Shown here: piece by piece, positions 1 through 12,982 of the stretch
Layout of the letters: each line of letters begins with the position of its first letter
Position numbering within the stretch: position 1 is the stretch's first letter
Source of the DNA: an uncultured Eubacteriales bacterium
GTDB lineage: Bacteria > Bacillota_A > Clostridia > Lachnospirales > Cellulosilyticaceae
DNA length: 13,299 nt
Reading direction: 5' to 3'
Assembly (NCBI GenBank): GCA_900556665.1
Contig: USPX01000039.1
Location: 1-13,299 of the forward strand
Notes under the pieces: model-generated
Told to the model about the DNA's origin: nothing
Databases searched by the model: none
What the model saw: the letters and a program-made list of their open reading frames with translations, nothing else
Translations under genes and position numbers: made by a program

Positions 1-331
1 TAGCGACTTGCCACTTAATAGCTTGTCTTGCTCTATTTTTCACATCTTCTTTATTAAGAAAGGCTTTTCGCTCTGACCAGCATTGAATGCCCTCGAAAAG
101 TGTCCCACTTTCATTCCATCTAGGTTCTCCTGCTGTAAGGGTTGTATCTAAATGAATATGTGGTTCTATAAAAGGTGTTGTTACCATCCAGCCACCTGCC
201 TCAATGACTTCTTCTCCTTCTTTAGGGGCTAATCCCTTGCCATCTGCAACTGGTACAATTTCTGTAAAAATGCCATTTTCTATTTTAATATCTACTAATT
301 GACCTTCTAAATTTGCATTTCTAATAATCAT
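1..331 (-). CDS. codA: Cytosine deaminase, N-terminal 110 residues (runs off window)
   Basis: CodA hydrolyses cytosine to uracil and ammonia in the cytoplasm, feeding pyrimidine salvage. Only the first 110 codons are present; the gene continues beyond base 1. The translation has the N-terminal beta-sandwich of metal-dependent amidohydrolases. Then comes FIEPHIHLDTT (residues 54-64), whose H58 and H60 are the metal-binding HxH pair of the family. NESGTLFEGI (73-82) and the stretch ending in IKWQVA follow E. coli CodA closely. The ATG at 331 is preceded by an AAGAGGAA ribosome site (339-346) at good spacing. It lies 158 bases downstream of codB and is probably cotranscribed with it, although a hairpin at 388-410 lies between them. 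The identification rests on remembered similarity to E. coli CodA plus the adjacent codB, and is firm. Confidence 0.93.
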   Translation of the reverse strand, partial: MIIRNANLEGQLVDIKIENGIFTEIVPVADGKGLAPKEGEEVIEAGGWMVTTPFIEPHIHLDTTLTAGEPRWNESGTLFEGIQCWSERKAFLNKEDVKNRARQAIKWQVA

Positions 332-387
332 AATATGCTTCCTCTTTTCTACTCTCAGATTTTTCGTGTAATTTCTATATTATAAAA

Positions 388-410
388 GCGAAGTAACACC
401 TGTACTTCGC
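388..410 (-). terminator. Hairpin between codB and codA, possible weak terminator
   Basis: A perfect 8-bp stem (GCGAAGTA paired with TACTTCGC) closes a 7-nt loop. In the direction of codBA transcription it is followed by TTTTATAATAT, a short and interrupted U-tract. It could act as a partial terminator or as an RNA-processing or stability element that lowers codA relative to codB. The rest of the 332-489 gap is A-rich on the coding strand and holds no gene that I can support. Confidence 0.55.
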
Positions 411-489
411 CCCAAATTTATATATCAGACCAACCACCACGAAAGTCCAATTCTTTATCCTTTTGTTTTCTTTTTGTTCTTCTTCTCTT

Positions 490-1740
490 TTAATCTGCTA
501 CCACCTTAGCAGGTGCCTTAATAGCTGTAAACACTATATAGGCTATTATTGATGTAACTACTGCATTAACTGGTGTAATACCTGGTAAGAAGTGCGCTGC
601 TATAACACCTACTAACCATGCAATAATTGCAACTTTGTTTACACTTGTAATATTGGCTGCTTCTAATGCAACATATTTTCCTTTGCGTACAAAGAAATAA
701 TCTGCAATGATAACACCACCAATGCTTGGCATAAATGTATTTAATAAACTAAGCCATGACATAAAGTTATTATATAGTGTAATTGCTAAAAGTGTTCCCA
801 CAATACCATTAATAATAACTAATCTATTTTTAGGCTGTTTTGTAATGTTTGAAAAGCCAAGTCCAGAGGCATATAAAGCATTATCATTTGTTGTCCAAAT
901 ATTAAGACCTAATACAATGATTGCTGGAATAATAAGCCCTTGAAGAAACATTACTTCTGAAATATCTGCCTCGCCTGTTACCATTGCACCAATTGCGCCA
1001 AATGCAAACATTAATGTGTTTCCAATTAAGAATGCGATAACTGTTGTACTTACACCAATACGTTTATTTTTTGCAAAACGAGTAAAATCTGGTGTAAGTG
1101 TACCGCCACTAATGAAAGATGCAACTACTACACCTACTGCGGCGCTCATTGACATTGTTTCTGCTGGTACAATGTCCATTAAGCCATTTATTCCACCCAC
1201 ACTATTCATCGCCATTCCTGCTGATACTGACCCAAGAATTGCAATAGCTGGTACGGCTACCGCACTTAAAATCATAAGTGATTTCATACCGAAGTATGCT
1301 GTTGCTGTAATTAAAAAGCCTGCAATGGCTACTAATATCACAACATTAATTCCTGTTACCTTTGCTACTGGATATGCGAACATTGCTGTTCCTACGCCAA
1401 ACCAACCAACTTGCGTTGCACCAAGTAAGAAAGAAACAAGATAAGACCCCTTTTCACCAAAAGAATATCTAGCAAGTAAATGTGTTGACAGTCCTGTGTC
1501 TCCTGCAATATAAGCAAGTAAACCTGTATAGATACATAATATAATGTTTCCAATAAATACTGCTTTAAAGAAGTCTTTAAAATTCATACTTGTTCCTAAC
1601 GTCCCACCACTAAGCATACTTGCTGAGAAGAATGCAAATCCTAACATTACTACAAGCATTGCTAAAAAGCCTTTTCTACTTTGATGATCTACTGCTGTAA
1701 GGGAAAAATCATGATCATGATGTTGTTGTTTCTCTTTCAT
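490..1740 (-). CDS. codB: Cytosine permease (NCS1 family)
   Basis: CodB is an inner-membrane cytosine importer of the nucleobase-cation-symport-1 family. The 416-residue length matches E. coli CodB (about 419). Family blocks are obvious: FFSASMLSGGTLGTSMNFKD near residue 40, ATQVGWFGVGTAMFA near 110, SFISGGTLTPDFTRFAK near 210, LGLNIWTTNDNALYASGLGF near 280 and SIGGVIIADYF near 340. The protein is almost entirely hydrophobic helices, with about 12 expected. The N-terminus carries a short His/Asp-rich cytoplasmic tail (HHDHDHD) before the first helix. The ATG at 1740 follows AAGGAG (1748-1753) at 7-base spacing. It is the first gene of the codBA operon and sits behind a leader with a PyrR loop, so repression by PyrR and UMP is likely. 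The reading frame stays open for 23 codons past the stop, which is odd and is treated as a finding. Confidence 0.96.
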   Translation of the reverse strand: MKEKQQHHDHDFSLTAVDHQSRKGFLAMLVVMLGFAFFSASMLSGGTLGTSMNFKDFFKAVFIGNIILCIYTGLLAYIAGDTGLSTHLLARYSFGEKGSYLVSFLLGATQVGWFGVGTAMFAYPVAKVTGINVVILVAIAGFLITATAYFGMKSLMILSAVAVPAIAILGSVSAGMAMNSVGGINGLMDIVPAETMSMSAAVGVVVASFISGGTLTPDFTRFAKNKRIGVSTTVIAFLIGNTLMFAFGAIGAMVTGEADISEVMFLQGLIIPAIIVLGLNIWTTNDNALYASGLGFSNITKQPKNRLVIINGIVGTLLAITLYNNFMSWLSLLNTFMPSIGGVIIADYFFVRKGKYVALEAANITSVNKVAIIAWLVGVIAAHFLPGITPVNAVVTSIIAYIVFTAIKAPAKVVAD

Positions 1741-2931: not shown

Positions 2932-4686
2932 TTAAACAGCAAATTGACTATTATAGAGATTTGCATAGAAACCATTTTGTGCAAGTAATGTCTTATGATT
3001 ACCTTGTTCAATAATATGGCCATCTTTCATCACTAAAATAATATCTGCATTTTGAATGGTTGAAAGCCTGTGGGCTACAATGAAACTTGTTCTACCCTCC
3101 ATAAGTTTATTAAAAGCACTTTGAATCTTAATTTCTGTACGTGTATCAATAGAAGATGTGGCTTCATCTAAAATAAGCATTGGTGGTTTACAAAGCATTA
3201 CTCTTGTAATACAAAGTAATTGTTTTTGCCCTTGTGATAACATACCGCCATCTTCTCCAATAACAGTATCATACCCCTGTGGTAAACGTTTAATAAAAGA
3301 ATGTGAATGGGCTGCCTTAGCTGCTGCAATAATTTCTTCTTCTGTGGCATCTGGTTTTCCCATAACAATGTTTTCTCTAATTGTGCCTTTTTTAAGCCAA
3401 GTATCTTGAAGTACCATACCATAGCTTTCGCGTAAGCTTTTACGTGTTACTTCTCTAATATCTTTGCCTTCTACCAAAATGCTACCATCATTTACATCAT
3501 AAAAGCGCATAAGTAAATTAATAAGCGTTGTTTTACCACAACCTGTCGGCCCTACAATTGCCACCTTTTGTCCTGGTTTAATATGAATATTGAAGTTTTC
3601 AATAAGTTTCTTTTCTGGTACATAAGAAAAGGCTACATTTTCACAAATCACTTCACCTGCTACATGATTTAATGCTACGGCATCTCTTGGTTCTTCTACT
3701 TGTGGCTCTTCTTCAATAAGTTCAAAAATTCGTCCTGCACAAGCAATGGCATTTTGAAGCTCTGTAACAACTCCTGAAATCTCATTAAACGGCTTTGTAT
3801 ATTGGTTGGCATAACTTAAAAAACATGATAATGCCCCAACGCTCATGCGTCCTGAAAGCACTGTAAATGCCCCAGTAACAGCAACGCCAGCATACACAAT
3901 ACTATTAACAAAACGTGTACAAGGATTTGTTAAAGATGAAAAGAAGGTCGCTCGTAAAGAATACTTTTGAAGGCGTTTATTAATTTCATCAAATTTCTTT
4001 ATGGCCTCTTCTTCATGAGCATACGCTTTAACAACCTTTTGATTACCTATAATCTCATCAATAAATGCTGTTTGCTCCCCTCTTGTTTCAGATTGCAACT
4101 TAAACATTGTATAAGTCTTCTTAGCAATGAAGCTTGCTACAAACAAAGAAAGTGGTGTTACAAGTACAACAACGAAAGTAATGCCTACATTAATGCTTAG
4201 CATAAATCCCAATGTTCCTAAAATCGTTACAACGCCAGTAAAAAGTTGTGTAAATCCTAATAAAAGTCCATCTGCAAATTGATCCACATCTGTAATAATA
4301 CGGCTTACAATCTCACCTTGTGATTTACTATCTAAATATTTAAGTGGTAAAATCTCAATTTTTTCAAAAGCTTCATTACGAATATCTCTGACCACATTAT
4401 AAGTCACTTTATTATTAATCATATTCATAATCCACTGAGCTGCTGCTGTAATCACTACCATAATCACAACTAAACCAAGTGCTTTTAAAATACCATTAAA
4501 GTTAACATTGCCATAAACGATGCCATCTATGGCTTTCCCAATTAAAATCGGCACATATAAAGTAAGTATAACAATCAAAGTAGCTAGTAGTATTGAAACT
4601 ACCATAAGACCTCTATATTTTTTAATATAATTTAAAACCTTCTTAAGCGTTGCTTTTTGAGAGGCTTTATCTATTTTTTTACTCAT
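2932..4686 (-). CDS. ABC exporter half-transporter, catalytically competent subunit
   Basis: This 584-residue type IV (multidrug exporter-like) ABC half-transporter has a six-helix membrane domain (about 25-325) fused to an ATPase domain (about 345-584). Visible motifs are Walker A GPTGCGKT (379-386), Q-loop Q427, Walker B MLILDE with catalytic E508, and switch H539 in VAHRLSTI. The signature is LSQGQ (483-487) instead of LSGGQ. The partner gene just upstream has the opposite pattern, so the two should form a heterodimer with one working and one degenerate ATP site, as in TM287/288, BmrCD and LmrCD. Only 3 bases separate it from the partner's stop. Its GAGGAGG ribosome site (4695-4701) lies inside the partner's last codons, implying translational coupling. 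The substrate cannot be deduced; drugs, lipids or peptides are all possible. Confidence 0.93.
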   Translation of the reverse strand: MSKKIDKASQKATLKKVLNYIKKYRGLMVVSILLATLIVILTLYVPILIGKAIDGIVYGNVNFNGILKALGLVVIMVVITAAAQWIMNMINNKVTYNVVRDIRNEAFEKIEILPLKYLDSKSQGEIVSRIITDVDQFADGLLLGFTQLFTGVVTILGTLGFMLSINVGITFVVVLVTPLSLFVASFIAKKTYTMFKLQSETRGEQTAFIDEIIGNQKVVKAYAHEEEAIKKFDEINKRLQKYSLRATFFSSLTNPCTRFVNSIVYAGVAVTGAFTVLSGRMSVGALSCFLSYANQYTKPFNEISGVVTELQNAIACAGRIFELIEEEPQVEEPRDAVALNHVAGEVICENVAFSYVPEKKLIENFNIHIKPGQKVAIVGPTGCGKTTLINLLMRFYDVNDGSILVEGKDIREVTRKSLRESYGMVLQDTWLKKGTIRENIVMGKPDATEEEIIAAAKAAHSHSFIKRLPQGYDTVIGEDGGMLSQGQKQLLCITRVMLCKPPMLILDEATSSIDTRTEIKIQSAFNKLMEGRTSFIVAHRLSTIQNADIILVMKDGHIIEQGNHKTLLAQNGFYANLYNSQFAV

Positions 4687-4689
4687 CTT

Positions 4690-6387
4690 TTATGCCTCCT
4701 CTTTTTTAAATTGAGAATAATAAATCTCACGATAAACTTCACATTCCTCAAGTAAAGTTTCATGTGTTCCTTTACCCACCATTTTTCCATCATCTAAAAC
4801 AATGATTTGGTCGGCATACTGAATGGAAGAAGCTCTCTGAGATACAATAAATACTGTTGGCTTATAATCTAAATTACGAATTGCCATACGTAATTTTGCA
4901 TCTGTTGCAAAGTCTAGTGCTGATGTACTATCATCTAATATTAAAATCTCTGGCTTTTTAACAAGGGCTCTGGCAATGCTCATACGTTGTCTTTGTCCAC
5001 CAGATAAATTTCTACCACCTTGCTCAATCTTACCTTCTAATCCACCTTTTTGCGCTACGACTTCACTGCCTTGAGCTAAGGCAACAGCCTCATTTATATC
5101 TTCTTCTGAAGCTTCTTTATTTCCCCACTTAATATTACTTGCTATATCCCCTTTAAATAAAACAGCTTTTTGCATGACAATACCTATTTTATTAAGCAGT
5201 GCCTTACGTTCATATGATTTAACATTTTCACCATTTATAAGGACTTCTCCTGCCGTAGCATCATAAAATCTAGGAATTAAATGGACAAGTGAACTTTTTC
5301 CTGAACCTGTTCCCCCAATAATTCCTACTGTCTCACCTTTTTTTACTTCAAAATTAATGGCTGTTAAAGATTCTTCTCCAGCCCCTTTATAAGTTAGAGA
5401 AACATTTTTAAAGCTTACAATTGGTGCACTTTCATCTACATTTCCAGCTCCATAACTGCCATATGCCATACTTGACTTAATCTCAAATACATCTGAAATA
5501 CGATTACCACATGCAATGGATTTGTTAACTGTAATAATAAGTGCTGCAAGCTTAATGAGTTCTACTAAAATCTGTGACATGTAATTATAAAGGGCTACAA
5601 CTTGACCTTGTGATAAAATACCTTGATCTACTTGAATTGCCCCAACCCATATGAGTCTAACAATGGCCACATTAAGGGCAGCAATTGTTCCTGCTTTCTT
5701 TTGAATATGTGTTAAAGCTTCATTACGCGTGGTAAAGGCTTCTAACTCCTCTTGTTCCTTTCCAAAAGCACGAATAACGCGTACTCCAGCTAAATTTTCT
5801 CTTGTACTACTTAATACTTGGTCTAATCTTTGCTGTACAGCTTTAAGCATAGGGATATTCATAAGCATAATGCCAAATACAACAATAGATAATAAAATAA
5901 TGGCAATCACAAAGATTAACGCTGATTTTGCATCAATTGTAAATGCCATAACTGTTGCCCCTAAAACAACAAATGGTGAACGTAAAAATAGACGTAGTAC
6001 CATATTTACACCATTTTGTGCTTGATTGACATCACTTGTCATTCGCGTCATCATCGTGGCTGTTCCCAACGTATCAACTTCTGTAAATGAAAGACTTAAT
6101 AAATGTTTGAATAAGGCTTGTCTTACACCTGTTCCAAAACCAACAGCGGCTTTAGCTGAAAAGTACTGGGCAGTTACAGAACATACTAGCCCAATAACAG
6201 CTAATAAAACAAGCATAAGACACATCCTTACAATGTACCCTAAATCTCTTCCAGCAATACCCTTATCAATAATTGCTGCAACAACAAGAGGTACAAAAAG
6301 TTCAAAAGAAGCTTCTAGCATTTTAAATAAAGGTGCTAAGACACATTCTTTTTTATAATCTTTGAGGTAAATCAATAACTTCTTCAC
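4690..6387 (-). CDS. ABC exporter half-transporter, degenerate-site subunit
   Basis: This is a 565-residue fused membrane/ATPase half-transporter and the first gene of the pair. Numbered from the GTG start, it has six membrane helices (about 15-300), Walker A GGTGSGKS (358-365), Q-loop Q406 and a canonical LSGGQ (461-465). Walker B is ILILDD, with D486 in place of the catalytic Glu. The switch residue is Q517 (VSQR) in place of His. These losses are typical of the non-hydrolysing subunit of heterodimeric exporters. The start is chosen as GTG at 6387 because AGAGG (6397-6401) is 9 bases upstream and the protein then begins with the common KKLLIYLKDYKKE. An ATG at 6396 abuts that site with no spacing and is less likely. 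The gene is divergent from a broken LysR regulator at 6536, which may once have controlled it. Confidence 0.92.
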   Translation of the reverse strand: MKKLLIYLKDYKKECVLAPLFKMLEASFELFVPLVVAAIIDKGIAGRDLGYIVRMCLMLVLLAVIGLVCSVTAQYFSAKAAVGFGTGVRQALFKHLLSLSFTEVDTLGTATMMTRMTSDVNQAQNGVNMVLRLFLRSPFVVLGATVMAFTIDAKSALIFVIAIILLSIVVFGIMLMNIPMLKAVQQRLDQVLSSTRENLAGVRVIRAFGKEQEELEAFTTRNEALTHIQKKAGTIAALNVAIVRLIWVGAIQVDQGILSQGQVVALYNYMSQILVELIKLAALIITVNKSIACGNRISDVFEIKSSMAYGSYGAGNVDESAPIVSFKNVSLTYKGAGEESLTAINFEVKKGETVGIIGGTGSGKSSLVHLIPRFYDATAGEVLINGENVKSYERKALLNKIGIVMQKAVLFKGDIASNIKWGNKEASEEDINEAVALAQGSEVVAQKGGLEGKIEQGGRNLSGGQRQRMSIARALVKKPEILILDDSTSALDFATDAKLRMAIRNLDYKPTVFIVSQRASSIQYADQIIVLDDGKMVGKGTHETLLEECEVYREIYYSQFKKEEA

Positions 6388-6454
6388 CCTGTTCATCCTC
6401 TCTTTTTATCTGTGTATTTAAAATTTCCGACTATTATCTTATCACAATATGTTC

Positions 6455-6535: not shown

Positions 6536-7419
6536 ATGGACTTTAAACAACTTACCTATTTTTATACAACTGTACAAGAAGGTAATATTTCTAAAGCTGC
6601 ACAACGGTTACATATTTCTCAGCCCCCACTTAGTACAAAGCTTAAAGATTTAGAAGAAGAACTTGGCCTTACGCTTTTTGAAAGAGGTTCCCGAAAAATA
6701 GAACTTACACAAGCTGGGCGCATTTTTTATGCTAGAACTGCTTCTATATTAGAACTTATGGACCTTGCTATTAAAGAATTAGACGATTATAAACAAGGCA
6801 AAATGGGTACTTTACGCATTGGCATTATCTCTTCTATTAGTAGTACTTTAATTAATGAATGGCTTCATGAATTTCATAAATGCTATCCTAATATTCAATT
6901 TAATATCTTCGAAGGAAATACCTATGAACAACTTGAAAAGTTACGTAATAACCTTATTGAACTTGCCATAGTCCGCACACCCTTTTCTGCAGATGATTTA
7001 GAATGTACCCTTAGAAAAGAGCATGTATTTGCAGTAGGTACACCAGAATTTTTCCAAGGAATCACTACACCTACAGTTACACTTAAAGAGATTTGTCAAA
7101 AACCTCTTATCTTATATCGTAGGTGGGAAAATGTTATTTGGCATATCTGTCAATCGGAGCACTTAACCCCTCAAATCTTTTGTATGAATGATGACGCACG
7201 AACAACTGCGAGTATGACCAATGCCGGACTTGGCATAGGTATTATACCCGAGTCAGCCTTTCACTAATCACAAATCCTCACATTATTAAAAAAAGCATTG
7301 CCAATGAAGCACTGATTTCTAGCATTTGTATGCTGCGTAACCCTAATAGCTACCGCTCTACTGTAGTAGAACTTTTTTATAATTTCTTAAAACAAATACC
7401 GCACAACTCTTCTAACTAA
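6536..7419 (+). pseudogene. LysR-family transcriptional regulator, frameshifted near the C-terminus
   Basis: The intact frame runs 6536-7267 (243 residues), with an N-terminal winged HTH (residues 1-60). FKQLTYFYTTVQEGNISKAA, SQPPLSTKLKDLEEELG and LFERG in that region are classic LysR. The start of the effector-binding domain follows. The frame ends at ESAFH-stop. In the -1 frame translation continues without interruption as LITNPHIIKKSIANEALISS and on to a stop at 7417-7419. Restoring one base near 7259-7263 gives about 294 residues, the usual LysR length, so a base has been lost or misread there. The truncated protein keeps DNA binding but lacks the last strands and helix of the regulatory domain. 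AGGAGA (6522-6527) precedes the ATG. It is divergent from the ABC exporter pair, which is its probable ancestral target. Pseudogene and sequencing error are both possible. Confidence 0.87.
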
Positions 7420-7436
7420 GAAGTTGTGCGGTATTT
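7394..7436. terminator. Bidirectional terminator between convergent genes
   Basis: A perfect 15-bp stem (AAATACCGCACAACT with its complement ending at 7436) has T-rich sequence on both sides. It serves the convergent LysR gene and the exporter operon ending at 7469. The restored LysR stop codon (7417-7419) falls in its loop, so the regulator's last codons form the 5' arm. Confidence 0.9.
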
Positions 7437-7468
7437 ATTATTTCAATAATATATTTACTAATATCTTA

Positions 7469-8614
7469 CTAGCATGTTTCTACTTCTGAACCAAATTTTC
7501 TTTTAAAGCACCAAATGCCTATTGGTAACATAATTAAAATATAAATAACAAGTGCTATAATATCTCCTTTTACATCTGCAAAAGATAGATTTTTAATTAG
7601 GATTTCATCAAAGCTTCTTGCATAACTCATAAGTGGCCAAAATGTTTTTACAAGGGCTACTAATGCATTTGGCATTTGATCTATTGGCCATACATAACCA
7701 CATGTTAAAAATGTTGGTAATGATAACATATACGCGATTTGTGTGAAGCGTGTTTTCTTACCTGTGAAACTATATAAGATAATACCTGCGCAGCTTATAG
7801 CTACAGCAAATAATACACTTATTAAAACAGCTAGGCCAATGCTTCCATTAAATATCAAACCAAACTTCCTATGTATTAAATAGATTGAAAAGGCACCTGA
7901 ACCGATAAGACATGTTCCTGCTACTACCATTTTCGCAAATAATTTAGGAAGTGTTCCTTTAGCTGCTACTTCTTCTGGATTTCTTGACATTAATGTTGCC
8001 ATACTTGATAGCATAAGCTGTTGTAAAAATACAGCAAAGATACCATACATTAAATAATTCATATAAGTTAATTTAGAATCATATAACATACGTTCTTCAA
8101 AGGTTATAGGAAGTGCCATATTATTAGCTACATTTTCTTCTAAACTCCCTTTTGCTTCTATAACTTGAATAGCCGCACCTGCTGATACTGTTTGAACAAT
8201 ACTTGCTGCCCCTGCATATAAGTTATTACTTATAATAGCATTTGTCCCATCTGTTAAAATTAAAACTTGAGATTGTATCCCATCTTTAACATTCATATTA
8301 AGGTCTTTTGGAATATATACCCCCATATGAACCTTACGTTCATCAATAAGTTGTTCAAGCTCTGCTTTATCCTTTGCATAGTACTCAACAATAAAGCGTT
8401 CATTTTCATCAAAGTAACGTACAATCTTTCTACTTAAACTACTATTATCTTCATCTAAAACAGCAATAGCTACGTCATTTACATAGCTATTGTAATATGC
8501 CCCACCAATCCACATTGATAAGAATGGCATAGCAATGAAGAATATGAGAAGTAACCCTATTTTCTTAGAGGTAAAATCAATTTCTTCTAAAAGGCTTTTA
8601 AAAAAAGTGATCAT
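7469..8614 (-). CDS. ABC-2 type permease, second of a tandem pair
   Basis: This 381-residue membrane protein has the ABC2_membrane_3 layout. One helix (about 19-38) is followed by an outside domain of about 145 residues, then five helices (about 185-208, 228-248, 258-283, 291-310 and 350-370). The outside domain begins VAIAVLDEDNSSLSRKIVRY, and the C-terminal half has the family CGYVWPIDQMP segment. Length, layout and these motifs match the upstream neighbour, so the two are an old duplication and probably pair as a heterodimeric pore. It overlaps the neighbour by 4 bases (ATGA), with GGAGG inside the neighbour's end. No ATPase is encoded in the operon, so the energy source is unknown. The nearest known layout is E. 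coli YbhG-YbhF-YbhS-YbhR, which does include an ATPase. Confidence 0.87.
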   Translation of the reverse strand: MITFFKSLLEEIDFTSKKIGLLLIFFIAMPFLSMWIGGAYYNSYVNDVAIAVLDEDNSSLSRKIVRYFDENERFIVEYYAKDKAELEQLIDERKVHMGVYIPKDLNMNVKDGIQSQVLILTDGTNAIISNNLYAGAASIVQTVSAGAAIQVIEAKGSLEENVANNMALPITFEERMLYDSKLTYMNYLMYGIFAVFLQQLMLSSMATLMSRNPEEVAAKGTLPKLFAKMVVAGTCLIGSGAFSIYLIHRKFGLIFNGSIGLAVLISVLFAVAISCAGIILYSFTGKKTRFTQIAYMLSLPTFLTCGYVWPIDQMPNALVALVKTFWPLMSYARSFDEILIKNLSFADVKGDIIALVIYILIMLPIGIWCFKRKFGSEVETC

Positions 8615-9756
8615 CGATTATCTTCCTCCTTTGGTTTCCCCATATTACGAATAGTGATTCCCAGTGTACCTATTGCAATCATAACAACTGTATAAAGTAC
8701 TAAAAATCTAATATCTGCGCCAACATTTACTGTGCTTCCTTTAAGATAAATATCTCTTAAATTATCACCATAATGTGTAAATGGAATAAACTGTGCCATC
8801 CATTTATAAGAAGGAATCATAGAGATAAGTGGCCATGTGTAACCTGCCATAATAGAGTTAGGAATAAGTAATAAACCTGATACTGTCATAGCAACTACAC
8901 GATTACGTAGGCATGCTGAAAGCGCTACTGCTAGAGAAGCTACAGCAAACATAAATAACACACTTAAGAAGTACACAAGTGGTAATGATCCTCTACAAGG
9001 AATTTTAAATAGCGTTACTTGCATAGTTACATTGATTAAAATAGCAATGCTACCTAATATACCGTAGAATATAACTTTACCTAAAATGTAAGCAAGTTCA
9101 TTACGTTTTTCTTCGCCTTCTTCTTTACGTCTGCGGCGCACGCACAGTACACCCGTTAAACCTATACCCAGCTGGCAAATAACTGTTCCATACCCTGGTG
9201 TCATAAAGTAGTTGAAATTCTTAGTTGGATTATAAAGTGTACGTGTCACAAAGCTAATTGGCATAGCTGTTGTGAAGGCTTCATCATAGCTTTTATTTAA
9301 ACGGCCTTGAAGATGCTTTACACTAGCGCCAACTCGCATTGAAATAAGAATTTCACTGGCCTTACTTTTTGCGATACTTGTAAGACTCATGTGACTACCA
9401 TCATAAATCATCATAATCGTTGGAGATTTTAAATCTGTTACATCTTCTGAGAAATTTTTAGGAATAACCATTCCCGCTCTTACTTTACTTGAATTAATAA
9501 GTGCTTCAAGTTCTGATTGACTATCTATCTGATACTTTAAATCAAAAGCATCATTATCTCTAAAGTAACCTATCAGCTGTCTACTAAGCTGTGAATCATC
9601 ATAGTCCACAACAGCGAAAGGCACTTTATCTATAACTCCCTTATTAAGCTGCCAACCTACTAAGAGGTTGACAACAATAGGGATGATTAAACATGCAATA
9701 AGCATAAGTTTATCTGATTTTAACTTACTTAGCTCTTCTCTGATACTTCCTAACAT
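8611..9756 (-). CDS. ABC-2 type permease, first of a tandem pair
   Basis: The protein has 381 residues and the same layout as the next gene. Helix 1 is at about 17-36, and an outside domain (about 37-183) starts VPFAVVDYDDSQLSRQLIGY. Further helices lie near 188-207, 228-247, 258-280, 288-306 and 350-372. The family GYTWPLISMIP segment precedes the last amphipathic stretch. A basic loop, RRRRKEEGEEKRNE, lies after helix 2, where an ATPase would be expected to dock from the cytoplasm. The ATG at 9756 follows AAGGTGAG. Its stop overlaps the next start by 4 bases. It lies 40 bases after the HlyD-type gene. Export of a small molecule or lipid with the HlyD and TolC-like partners is the natural inference; the substrate is unknown. 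Confidence 0.87.
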   Translation of the reverse strand: MLGSIREELSKLKSDKLMLIACLIIPIVVNLLVGWQLNKGVIDKVPFAVVDYDDSQLSRQLIGYFRDNDAFDLKYQIDSQSELEALINSSKVRAGMVIPKNFSEDVTDLKSPTIMMIYDGSHMSLTSIAKSKASEILISMRVGASVKHLQGRLNKSYDEAFTTAMPISFVTRTLYNPTKNFNYFMTPGYGTVICQLGIGLTGVLCVRRRRKEEGEEKRNELAYILGKVIFYGILGSIAILINVTMQVTLFKIPCRGSLPLVYFLSVLFMFAVASLAVALSACLRNRVVAMTVSGLLLIPNSIMAGYTWPLISMIPSYKWMAQFIPFTHYGDNLRDIYLKGSTVNVGADIRFLVLYTVVMIAIGTLGITIRNMGKPKEEDNR

Positions 9757-9796
9757 TTACTCACCTTCTTTGCGTAAGCTTTCATAGGGCGTCTCA

Positions 9797-11146
9797 TTAT
9801 TCAGCCTCATTGGCAAATTGAATATATGCACTCATACCTGGTCTTAATGTTTGCTCAGTATTTTCAAGTTCAATTTTTACACCAAATGATACGATATCGA
9901 AATCACCATTTTCATTAGTTGCTCTTTTAATCGCAAAGTCAGGTTGTGCATTAATTGTTGTTACTGTACCTGTAAATGTTTGATCTTTGTAAGCTGGTAC
10001 TTTAACTTGTACTTGTTGCCCTTGTGTGATTTTGCTAAGGTCAGTTTCTTTAACGCTTACTTCTACCCAAGTTCCTTTTAAGTTACTTACGATAGCCATT
10101 TGTGAACCAGATGATACAAGTTCACCTTCTTCAGAATTGATAGTTGTTACAACGCCATCCATTGGTGCTTTAATAACAACTTCTTTAAGATAAGCCTCAA
10201 CTTCCGCTACTGCTCCTTTAGCTTGTTGTACTAATCCCTCTTTAGCTTCTACGCCTGCTTGTGCTTGTGCGAGAAGCGCTTTAGAAGAATCTACACTTGC
10301 CATAGCTTGTGTAAGTTGCGCTTTTGCTGCTGAAAGTCCAGCTTCAGCTTGGTCTACTCTTGTTTTAGCTGCTTCAAGTCCAGCTAATGCTTGCTGACTT
10401 GTTGCTGTAGCAGCTTTTTTATCTTCTTCTCTAGCACCTTCTTGTGCCATACTTAATGTTTGTTTTGCTACTTCAAGTTGTGTTTTGATTTCATCTAATT
10501 TTTGCTGTGATACTGCACCTTTTTCTACAAGGGCTGCTACTCTATCATAAGATGCTTTCATTAAATCATAAGCAGCTTGTGCTTGCACGACTTCTTGATT
10601 TCTTGCACCATTATCAGCTTTTTCTTTCACTGCTGTTGCTGCTTCATATTGTTTTTCTGAAGCTGCTACACCAGCTTTAGCTTCATTTACTTTTCCTGCT
10701 GCTGCATTTACGCCAGCTTGTGCCTGCTCTACTAAACCATTTGAAGCATCAAGTCCAGCTTGTGCTTGCTCATATGTTTTTTTAGCTGCTTCAAGTCCGG
10801 CTTTTGCTTGTCTTAAAGCTGCCTCAGCTTGTTGTTTCTTAGCTTTGATTTCATCACTTGAAATCTCGATAAGTGGGTCACCAGCTTTTACTTCTTGACC
10901 TTCTTGTACGTAAATTTTTACGATTCTACCTGGTACTTTACTATTTACATTTACTTCTTGAGTTTCAAGAACCCCTTGTGCCACTAAGCCATCTTTAGCA
11001 TCAAAGAATTTTCCGATTGCTGCAAGCTCTGTATCTTTAGTCCCATTAAATCCATATGTTAATATGCATAAAACGATTGCTAAGCAAGCTGCAATTGCAA
11101 CTACATTAAGTAATTTCTTTGCTTTGAACACTTCTTTAAAATTCAT
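9797..11146 (-). CDS. HlyD-family membrane fusion (periplasmic adaptor) protein
   Basis: The protein has 449 residues. One N-terminal membrane anchor (about 11-32) is followed by a first lipoyl half-motif, VPGRIVKIYVQEGQEVKAGD (71-90). A very long Ala/Gln-rich coiled coil spans about 97-320, with repeated QAQAGL-type units. Then come the second lipoyl half, VIKAPMDGVVTTINSEEGEL (324-343), and a beta-barrel domain (about 358-449). The hairpin tip YDRVAALVEKGAVSQQKLDE carries R202, L206 and S213, the R-L-S pattern of MacA- and AcrA-type adaptors that contact TolC tips. The start at 11146 is preferred to ATG 11185 because AGGAGG (11154-11159) is 7 bases upstream. The protein would link the ABC-2 permeases to the TolC-like protein encoded just before it. 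The coiled coil is longer than in AcrA, which may suit a thick cell wall; that is inference. Confidence 0.93.
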   Translation of the reverse strand: MNFKEVFKAKKLLNVVAIAACLAIVLCILTYGFNGTKDTELAAIGKFFDAKDGLVAQGVLETQEVNVNSKVPGRIVKIYVQEGQEVKAGDPLIEISSDEIKAKKQQAEAALRQAKAGLEAAKKTYEQAQAGLDASNGLVEQAQAGVNAAAGKVNEAKAGVAASEKQYEAATAVKEKADNGARNQEVVQAQAAYDLMKASYDRVAALVEKGAVSQQKLDEIKTQLEVAKQTLSMAQEGAREEDKKAATATSQQALAGLEAAKTRVDQAEAGLSAAKAQLTQAMASVDSSKALLAQAQAGVEAKEGLVQQAKGAVAEVEAYLKEVVIKAPMDGVVTTINSEEGELVSSGSQMAIVSNLKGTWVEVSVKETDLSKITQGQQVQVKVPAYKDQTFTGTVTTINAQPDFAIKRATNENGDFDIVSFGVKIELENTEQTLRPGMSAYIQFANEAE

Positions 11147-11153
11147 GTTTCTT

Positions 11154-11159
11154 CCTCCT
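11154..11159 (-). promoter_or_regulatory. Ribosome binding site that fixes the HlyD start
   Basis: AGGAGG lies 7 bases before the ATG at 11146. The longer in-frame start at 11185 would put this site inside the gene and add 13 residues ahead of the membrane anchor with no good site of its own. Confidence 0.88.
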
Positions 11160-11223
11160 ATAACTATACGTTTAAATACTCTCATTTAAATTAAGCATTT
11201 AGCATGCTTATTCTTATGTATGA

Positions 11224-12879
11224 TTAATATGGTAAGATACCAATATCATTTAAATATTTAAGTCTTGATAAGTTATAACCGTTTACAACTTCGATTTCTT
11301 TTTCTTCAATATTTGTAAGGTTTTCTTCTGCTGCAATAACTTCTACAATTGTTCCTGACATATCTTGTAAGTTAAGTTGTTTAAGAAGAGCATTATCAAA
11401 CCCATAACCTACTTCATATTTAACTTTGGCAATTTCAACATTTTCTGTAGCATCTTGACGAAGCTCAGCTGCTGTTTTTACAAGTTTTCTCATAGACTCT
11501 ACTGTAGCATGAGATGTACGAATATCACTTTCTGCTTGAAGTTTTGCTTGGTCAATTGCAATTTTAGCCGCCTTCTGTAAAAGTATAACTTCTTTATATT
11601 GATTATCACTGCTTGTGTAATTCGGGGCTCTTACAGCATCCATTAAATCATCATAAAGTCCTGCTTGTACTTCAGCCTTTCTAATAGCTAATTGATTACT
11701 AAGCCCACTTGCAATACCTTTTGCTAAATCAAATTCTTCATCTGGATTTGCTTCTACTTTTGCAAGTTGAATATCTTTTGATAAATCCATATTCATATTT
11801 TTCTTAAGCTCAATTAAAGCTGAATTGTATTCTTTTACTTGCAGTTCACGTGCCATAACTGTTGAATTATAGTATGATTTAGCAAGTAACATATCATCTT
11901 TAGATTTACCGCCTACTTCATAAGCTGCTTTTGCTAACTCATATTGTACAAGTCCTCTTTCCATAGCTTTATCTTTTACTCTTAAGATTTCTTGTTGTTT
12001 TAAAGCTTCGAAGTAACTATTTTCAATAAGAAGTGCTACTTGATTTTTTAAAATATTAACAGCATAAGCTGTTACTTTATCTTGTGCTGTTACCATTTTG
12101 ATAACAAGTTCCCCAAGAGGTTCTACTCTTAAAGATGAAATTGTGCTTACTGAAAGTTTATTAGCTACATTGGCCATAGCAAATTGTACAGCCGCATCAT
12201 ATTGAGATTTACTTGAAAGATACTCTTGTGTACTTGCCTCTAATTTCTTTTCACTTTCTGAAAGTAATACTCCTGATTCTTCTAATGTTGATTTAGCTAT
12301 TGCAAAAACTTGTTCTTCAACACCTTTGGCAACTCCAGTTGCTAAAGCCTCTGGTATACCCATGTTTTTTAATTGTGCTGTTACGTCTTCTACTATCTTA
12401 GTTCCAGCTTTAACATTAACTGAAACTTTAAGCCCATATTCTGGTTTATCAATTTCTATTGTCTTTGTTATTGGTGAAAGCCCTGCTTCAAGATAAGCTT
12501 TGGCATTATTATACTCTGTTTGCTTTTCATAAAAGGTGTCTCTACCATCATTAATTAAGTATCCTGCATGAGATAATGCCATTGTGTTTTCATTTAAAGT
12601 ATTTCTTACGTCTTCACCATTGCTTCCCACAAGTTTGGCAATATCCGCTTGATTATGAACTTGTTTTAGCGATAAACTATTTTCAAGTCCATATGCTATA
12701 GCTTCATCTAAGGTTAAAAGTGTGCCTTTTATTTCTGCTATTTGCTTAGTATCTTGTTTTTGAGTGTTTGTTTCTACCACACTAGTTGTACTATCTTTTG
12801 CAGCTGGAGTTTGTGCGTAAAGTGTATTACTTACTAGTAATGTTGCGATCATTAAAGATGCTATTAGCTTTTTACTCAT
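11224..12879 (-). CDS. Secreted TolC-like efflux protein, apparently lacking the beta-barrel
   Basis: The 551-residue protein starts with a Sec signal peptide (1-22, ending TLYA before QTPA). There is no lipobox, sortase motif or membrane anchor. It has the two-fold repeat of TolC: LTLDEAIAYGLENSLSLKQV (56-75) is echoed by FDLAKGIASGLSNQLAIRKA (383-402). Each half has a hairpin-tip motif, YEVGGKSKDDML (320-331) and YEVGYGFDNALL (488-499). In the second half only about 15 residues (417-430) stand where two membrane strands would be, too few for a barrel. In the first half that place holds a mostly helical insert of about 170 residues (90-260). It is the first gene of the exporter operon, 77 bases before the HlyD start, with a GAGGGAG site before its ATG. 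TolC family membership is secure; function without an outer membrane is not. Confidence 0.85.
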   Translation of the reverse strand: MSKKLIASLMIATLLVSNTLYAQTPAAKDSTTSVVETNTQKQDTKQIAEIKGTLLTLDEAIAYGLENSLSLKQVHNQADIAKLVGSNGEDVRNTLNENTMALSHAGYLINDGRDTFYEKQTEYNNAKAYLEAGLSPITKTIEIDKPEYGLKVSVNVKAGTKIVEDVTAQLKNMGIPEALATGVAKGVEEQVFAIAKSTLEESGVLLSESEKKLEASTQEYLSSKSQYDAAVQFAMANVANKLSVSTISSLRVEPLGELVIKMVTAQDKVTAYAVNILKNQVALLIENSYFEALKQQEILRVKDKAMERGLVQYELAKAAYEVGGKSKDDMLLAKSYYNSTVMARELQVKEYNSALIELKKNMNMDLSKDIQLAKVEANPDEEFDLAKGIASGLSNQLAIRKAEVQAGLYDDLMDAVRAPNYTSSDNQYKEVILLQKAAKIAIDQAKLQAESDIRTSHATVESMRKLVKTAAELRQDATENVEIAKVKYEVGYGFDNALLKQLNLQDMSGTIVEVIAAEENLTNIEEKEIEVVNGYNLSRLKYLNDIGILPY

Positions 12880-12923: not shown

Positions 12924-12939
12924 GTTAATCATAATTAAC
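12924..12939. promoter_or_regulatory. Palindromic operator candidate for the exporter operon
   Basis: GTTAAT and ATTAAC form perfect 6-base arms around CATA. The palindrome lies just after the predicted transcription start (near 12947) and before the TolC-like gene. Its size and place suit a TetR- or MarR-family repressor, but no such regulator is in the window. Confidence 0.5.
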
Positions 12940-12953
12940 ATTTTCACTTCTTT

Positions 12954-12982
12954 GTTATACCCCAAAAATAGACTACCGTCAA
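12954..12982 (-). promoter_or_regulatory. Promoter of the TolC-like/HlyD/ABC-2 operon
   Basis: On the minus strand, TTGACG (12977-12982) is followed by 17 bases and TATAAC (12954-12959), each matching five of six consensus bases. Transcription would start near 12947, giving an untranslated leader of about 67 nt that contains the palindrome. Confidence 0.82.

Follow-up and report, generated by a model that had tools for sequence, protein, structure and literature searches.

According to the accessible part of PMC8809574, TolC-like pumps occur in monoderm Firmicutes, where the model of a C. difficile protein has an omission in the barrel and a seat in the cell wall or S-layer has been proposed. 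In S. pneumoniae, the adaptor of Spr0693-0694-0695 forms a nanotube in a Gram-positive cell, which in the excerpted text of PMC5768738 is proposed to traverse the inner wall space. E. coli carries the CecR-YbhG-YbhF-YbhS-YbhR operon, for which the available portion of PMC7190983 describes a TetR regulator, an HlyD adaptor and two ATP-binding cassette type 2 (ABC-2) permeases. Here we analyse a related block of four genes, for a TolC-like duct protein, an HlyD-type adaptor and two ABC-2 permeases (A and B), on a stretch of 13,299 nucleotides (the window; contig USPX01000039.1 of assembly GCA_900556665.1) from an uncultured Eubacteriales bacterium of the Cellulosilyticaceae. We estimate a probability of roughly 0.55 that this block encodes a wall-spanning exporter of single-membrane Clostridia, built from an A/B permease unit, an HlyD tube and a stalked duct with an incomplete barrel, and placed under a TetR switch in most relatives. 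The most likely form of such a system is a TetR-regulated exporter with a duct that ends in the wall or S-layer.

A permease block without an ATPase gene

Both permeases carry a type V (ABC-2) membrane domain; permease A and permease B matched the ABC2_membrane_3 model with 157.5 and 113.6 bits, respectively (cut-off 31.6). An ATPase gene was found inside the block at 0 of 16 loci, an absence that had passed unmentioned in the original prediction. Moreover, the coupling signature of ABC-2 exporters, which lies between membrane helices 2 and 3, was found in none of the 112 permease A and none of the 120 permease B homologues among the matches listed, which comprise the best 120 of 250 for A and the best 120 of 276 for B, with five A entries and one B entry shorter than 340 amino acids. 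A looser signature pattern matches a single listed A homologue (P0287; 1/112), near the C-terminus and outside the loop. In ATPase-bearing control operons the same signature is present in 12 of 13 cases under the strict pattern and in all 13 under the loose one, and it is present in E. coli (2/2); this survey of block and control operons covered 17 of the stronger-scoring regions. With neither an ATPase gene nor the usual coupling signature in its permeases, the block is not a complete ABC exporter. In both permeases the link to an ATPase motor appears to be lost, and since the usual contact is no longer seen in them, energy would come either from a source other than ATP or from ATP by way of a diverged contact.

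A bolder version, which we put forward tentatively, holds that a clade of such ABC-2-derived permease pairs in single-membrane Clostridia gave up ATP hydrolysis altogether and, together with a barrel-less stalked duct and an extra-long adaptor, forms an ATPase-free conduit that starts at the membrane, crosses the wall and S-layer and opens at the cell surface. Alternatively, the block may be an ordinary ABC-2 exporter with an ATPase that is encoded elsewhere and docks through a diverged contact, much as shared ATPases serve some sugar importers. We regard this explanation as somewhat doubtful, because the loss of the signature extends across both permease families among the homologues listed and because an ATPase of the type found in the control operons, which scores 581 bits in its own genome (G188), is only distantly matched in the block-carrying genomes G003 (a metagenome-assembled genome, MAG), G005 and G006, with best scores of 121, 157 and 177 bits. 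A further explanation, that the block is not an exporter but a wall-spanning surface scaffold or sensor, would have a precedent in YhgE/Pip and EsaA/YueB, which are ATPase-free relatives of the ABC-2 fold, and permease A weakly matches the two YhgE/Pip models (TIGR03062 and TIGR03061). However, these scores of 25.6 and 24.3 bits lie far under the cut-offs of 102.2 and 96.15, no match to either model was listed for permease B, and a dedicated adaptor, a duct and TetR control suit efflux better; we consider a scaffold or sensor improbable. Lacking both an ATPase gene and the coupling signature, the two large families of permeases raise the question of their power source.

The duct, the adaptor and the cell envelope

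The duct protein of the window matches Pfam OEP (PF02321) with 31.6 bits (cut-off 22), over profile positions 88-186 only. Its monomer model has the TolC fold with two helical repeats, as judged by fold comparison. In this model, barrel-hairpin 2 is an 8-residue turn (residues 418-425), and a helical stalk (about residues 90-238) that bears a small hairpin of 7+7 residues stands in place of barrel-hairpin 1; the two beta hairpins per chain with which outer-membrane factors form a membrane barrel are not found. The assignment of the fold was decided by the structural comparison: a sequence search of solved structures with the single duct protein gave no TolC match up to E 1, a duct profile returned only two unrelated chains at E 1.2, and hhalign of the duct against E. 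coli TolC alone reached a probability of 2.3%, which is too weak. The model suggests that the segment with which the duct would traverse an outer membrane has been lost.

In 59 clostridial OEP genes the repeat period, the distance between the two repeats, is 166-185 residues, compared with 218 in E. coli TolC; the window duct, which is not part of the 59-gene count, has a period of 168 from raw profile matches, and weak matches put that of CusC and MdtP at about 208. Of the clostridial loci counted, 17 supplied the 29 segments that make up the repeat profile, and the count omits proteins without two repeats above 15 bits (L004, CusC, MdtP and every protein of L136 and L137, 2 of 40 OEP loci) as well as two chance rows of period 56 and two duplicates (L138, L139). 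Many genomes of our class sample of 291 clostridial genomes encode short OEP proteins of about 360-420 amino acids, often as adjacent gene pairs and with the same short repeat period. In addition, two OEP matches, G257 C312:404-1525 and G110 C79:597-1961, cover the early OEP profile as diderm proteins do and may be either contaminants or true keepers of the barrel.

The adaptor matches the lipoyl/barrel-sandwich domain of its family, with 92.2 bits for HlyD_D23 (cut-off 30) and 72.1 for HlyD_3 (cut-off 22.2). The two lipoyl halves are 225 residues apart in 9 of 10 block adaptors (the window and L001-L008), 169 residues apart in L009 and 127 in YbhG of E. coli; if fully helical, each arm would measure about 169 angstroms at a spacing of 225 residues, against 95 in YbhG.

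The host is close to Cellulosilyticum, from which the nearest named proteins of the block come, and the adaptor and permeases of L001, from the type strain of C. ruminicola, are 87-94% identical to those of the window. Among the genomes of nine block-carrying relatives, five of which are MAGs and may be incomplete, BamA was found in none (control 7/14) and LpxC in none (control 4/14; Lpt genes were not searched). Across the class sample, BamA was above cut-off in 0 of 291 genomes, with one weaker match, and OEP matches occur in 94 of the 291, 92 of them above cut-off. The lack of BamA and LpxC in the nine block-carrying genomes thus supports a single-membrane host, and judged from these sequences a diderm placement is unlikely. 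A hidden outer membrane that would make the block an ordinary tripartite pump fits the gene set, which is that of diderm pumps, yet it is highly improbable, since both markers are missing from all nine genomes with the controls working and the barrel hairpins are absent or replaced in the duct model. SLH or CWB2 domains are present in 89 of the 94 OEP-bearing genomes versus 122 of the 197 others (Fisher p 4e-10, uncorrected for kinship and genome size). The single-membrane host proposed by the original prediction is thus supported through its relatives and class-wide, and the proposed conduit through the cell wall is consistent with the loss of the barrel hairpins in the model; the seat in the wall, though, is inferred and has already been published for monoderm Firmicutes. 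We conclude that the single-membrane and wall inference was largely right but anticipated in print (PMC8809574), and that the absent motor is the more surprising feature.

The order of the genes, the folds, the loss of the hairpins and of the signature, the TetR gene with its paired sites and the lack of outer-membrane markers in relatives are computed results; from them we infer how the complex would assemble, where in the envelope it would lie, in which direction and what it would transport, and how it would be powered. Permeases A and B would pair as a two-part type V membrane unit, on which the HlyD protein would build a tube, reaching outward by its extended helical hairpins. The TolC-like protein, once secreted, would dock onto the adaptor through conserved helix tips and would form a duct without a complete outer-membrane barrel, one hairpin being deleted and the other having become a helical stalk that could carry the duct into the zone of peptidoglycan and S-layer. 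A TetR repressor would switch the operon in most relatives, as in drug efflux operons. If this is true, the block shows how an envelope machine is adapted to cells without an outer membrane, with the barrel given up and the helical duct kept and extended by a stalk.

Several observations weigh against this wall-spanning exporter. Permease A of L086 retains a partial coupling signature, and in Defluviitalea phaphyphila (L005) an ATPase gene and an ABC2_membrane_3 permease (6613-8664) lie directly 5' of the block on the same strand. No conserved acidic residue that could serve as an ion path was found in the membrane helices of permease B. The duct model is of the monomer alone, with a mean predicted local distance difference test score (pLDDT) of 78.5 and a predicted template modelling score (pTM) of 0.57, and 2 of 40 OEP loci, those of G257 and G110, also match the early OEP profile and showed no two-repeat match to the repeat profile. 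Nor is the long adaptor a general feature: among six further block loci, a rough pattern measured the spacing in two only, with 145 residues in L081, though 261 in L083. Finally, neither SLH nor CWB2 domains were found in five OEP genomes (G049, G081, G096, G167 and G232).

Regulation and gene organization

All six open reading frames tested 3' of the block encode a TetR_N domain (L002, L003, L004, L005, L006 and L008). Paired TGACYANTRGTCA sites, 33-34 nucleotides apart and with 0-2 mismatches, lie 5' of the block in L002, L003, L004, L006, L007 and L008, and L005 has a single perfect TGACYANTRGTCA site there; the contig of L007 ends before any TetR gene position 3' of the block. L001, L009 and the window have neither a TetR gene beside the block nor a TGACYANTRGTCA site under 5 mismatches. 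The paired upstream palindromes thus track the neighbouring TetR gene. Over the ten loci, sites with at most 2 mismatches occur just as often as in shuffled sequence (20 versus 20 in 154,204 bases), and the weight therefore rests on pairing, spacing and perfect copies. We rejected the idea that the window contains an intact TetR site, its best candidate having 5 of 13 mismatches, and a 16-nucleotide palindrome at 12924-12939 gained no further support.

The four minus-strand open reading frames occupy 12879-7469; the first two intergenic gaps measure 38 and 40 nucleotides, and the last two genes overlap by 4 nucleotides (Table 1). The original prediction of one promoter, four closely spaced genes and one terminator is confirmed by these coordinates, the promoter reading and the hairpin folding energy, and its assignment of a secreted TolC-family protein, an HlyD adaptor and two ABC-2 permeases holds as well, since all Pfam matches exceed their cut-offs and a signal peptide on the duct protein is apparent by eye. 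A consensus scan of the window listed neither the block promoter, because the scan requires a final T, nor the block terminator; a comparable promoter layout lies 5' of the block in L001, L002, L004, L006, L007 and L008. An Rfam search gave no match above gathering scores.

Table 1. Features of the four-gene block, in positions of the window.
Feature	Position	Strand	Description
Promoter TTGACG-17-TATAAC	12954..12982	-	-35 at 12982-12977, -10 at 12959-12954
TolC/OEP-like duct protein	11224..12879	-	551 amino acids; Pfam OEP match and predicted structure
HlyD-type adaptor	9797..11185	-	462 amino acids; HlyD_D23 and HlyD_3 matches
Permease A (ABC2_membrane_3)	8611..9756	-	381 amino acids; without ABC-2 coupling signature
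Permease B (ABC2_membrane_3)	7469..8614	-	381 amino acids; type V membrane fold; without ABC-2 coupling signature
Terminator hairpin	7391..7439	-	-27.1 kcal/mol, z -8.55; 0/200 shuffles equally good

In a scan of species genomes, the order TolC-HlyD-permease A-permease B was found in 9 of 9 loci, counting L007, where the contig ends inside permease B, and L001, where the TolC-like open reading frame is in two pieces. A chimera is ruled out by this conserved order and by a 551-amino-acid protein (P0002) that is 100% identical on other contigs. The split in L001 (9001-10669; 227 and 317 amino acids) may be a strain difference or an assembly error.

Among the neighbouring genes, a LysR-type regulator of 243 amino acids lies at 6536-7267 on the plus strand; its substrate-domain match ends at profile position 159 of 209 and LysR-like residues continue in frame past the stop (by eye). 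The gene could be a truncated or damaged copy. Two complete, adjacent MsbA-like ABC half-transporters occupy 2932-6396 on the minus strand, and such a pair likewise lies 3' of the block in L001. They were ruled out as partners of the block, as they have their own ATPase domains and are separated from it by the terminator and the LysR gene on the opposite strand. Further, a gene for a cytosine permease at 490-1740 (568.8 bits) stands beside a partial open reading frame at the edge of the window that resembles cytosine deaminase by eye (together 2-1740, minus strand).

Comparison with described systems

The monoderm TolC-like pumps are close in design, as the part of PMC8809574 that is accessible likewise describes a TolC-like gene in an operon with an adaptor and a membrane component, no BAM, an omission in the barrel and a proposed seat in wall or S-layer. 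In that portion of the text the word ATPase does not occur, so that an absent ATPase goes unmentioned, as does a helical stalk; operons of the present type may be among the 12 of its figure S6A. No description of the ATPase-free state of such a block was found in the titles, abstract openings and passages that the literature search covered. The stalk, the class-wide measure of the repeat period, the ATPase-free block with loss of the signature and the paired sites come from the present work and may already be in print. Spr0693-0694-0695 differs in its MacB-type permease with ATPase, and the excerpted text of PMC5768738 describes no TolC-like part.

The E. coli Ybh operon (L031) resembles the block in its adaptor, YbhG being 30% identical to that of the window, and its permeases are only 21-22% identical to permease A. 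Unlike the block, it has a two-domain ATPase (YbhF), intact coupling signatures and no duct gene in the operon; of the parts that a YbhGFSR-type operon brings together, the block has the adaptor and the two permeases but no ATPase. The clostridial HlyD-ATPase-ABC2 operons (L063 and L087-L097) draw on the same adaptor and permease families, but differ from the block in that all 12 have an ATPase gene, keep the signature and have no two-repeat OEP gene in the stretches examined. Both kinds of operon, the ATPase-free block and the HlyD-ATPase-ABC2 operon, occur together in single genomes, for example in G009 and G188.
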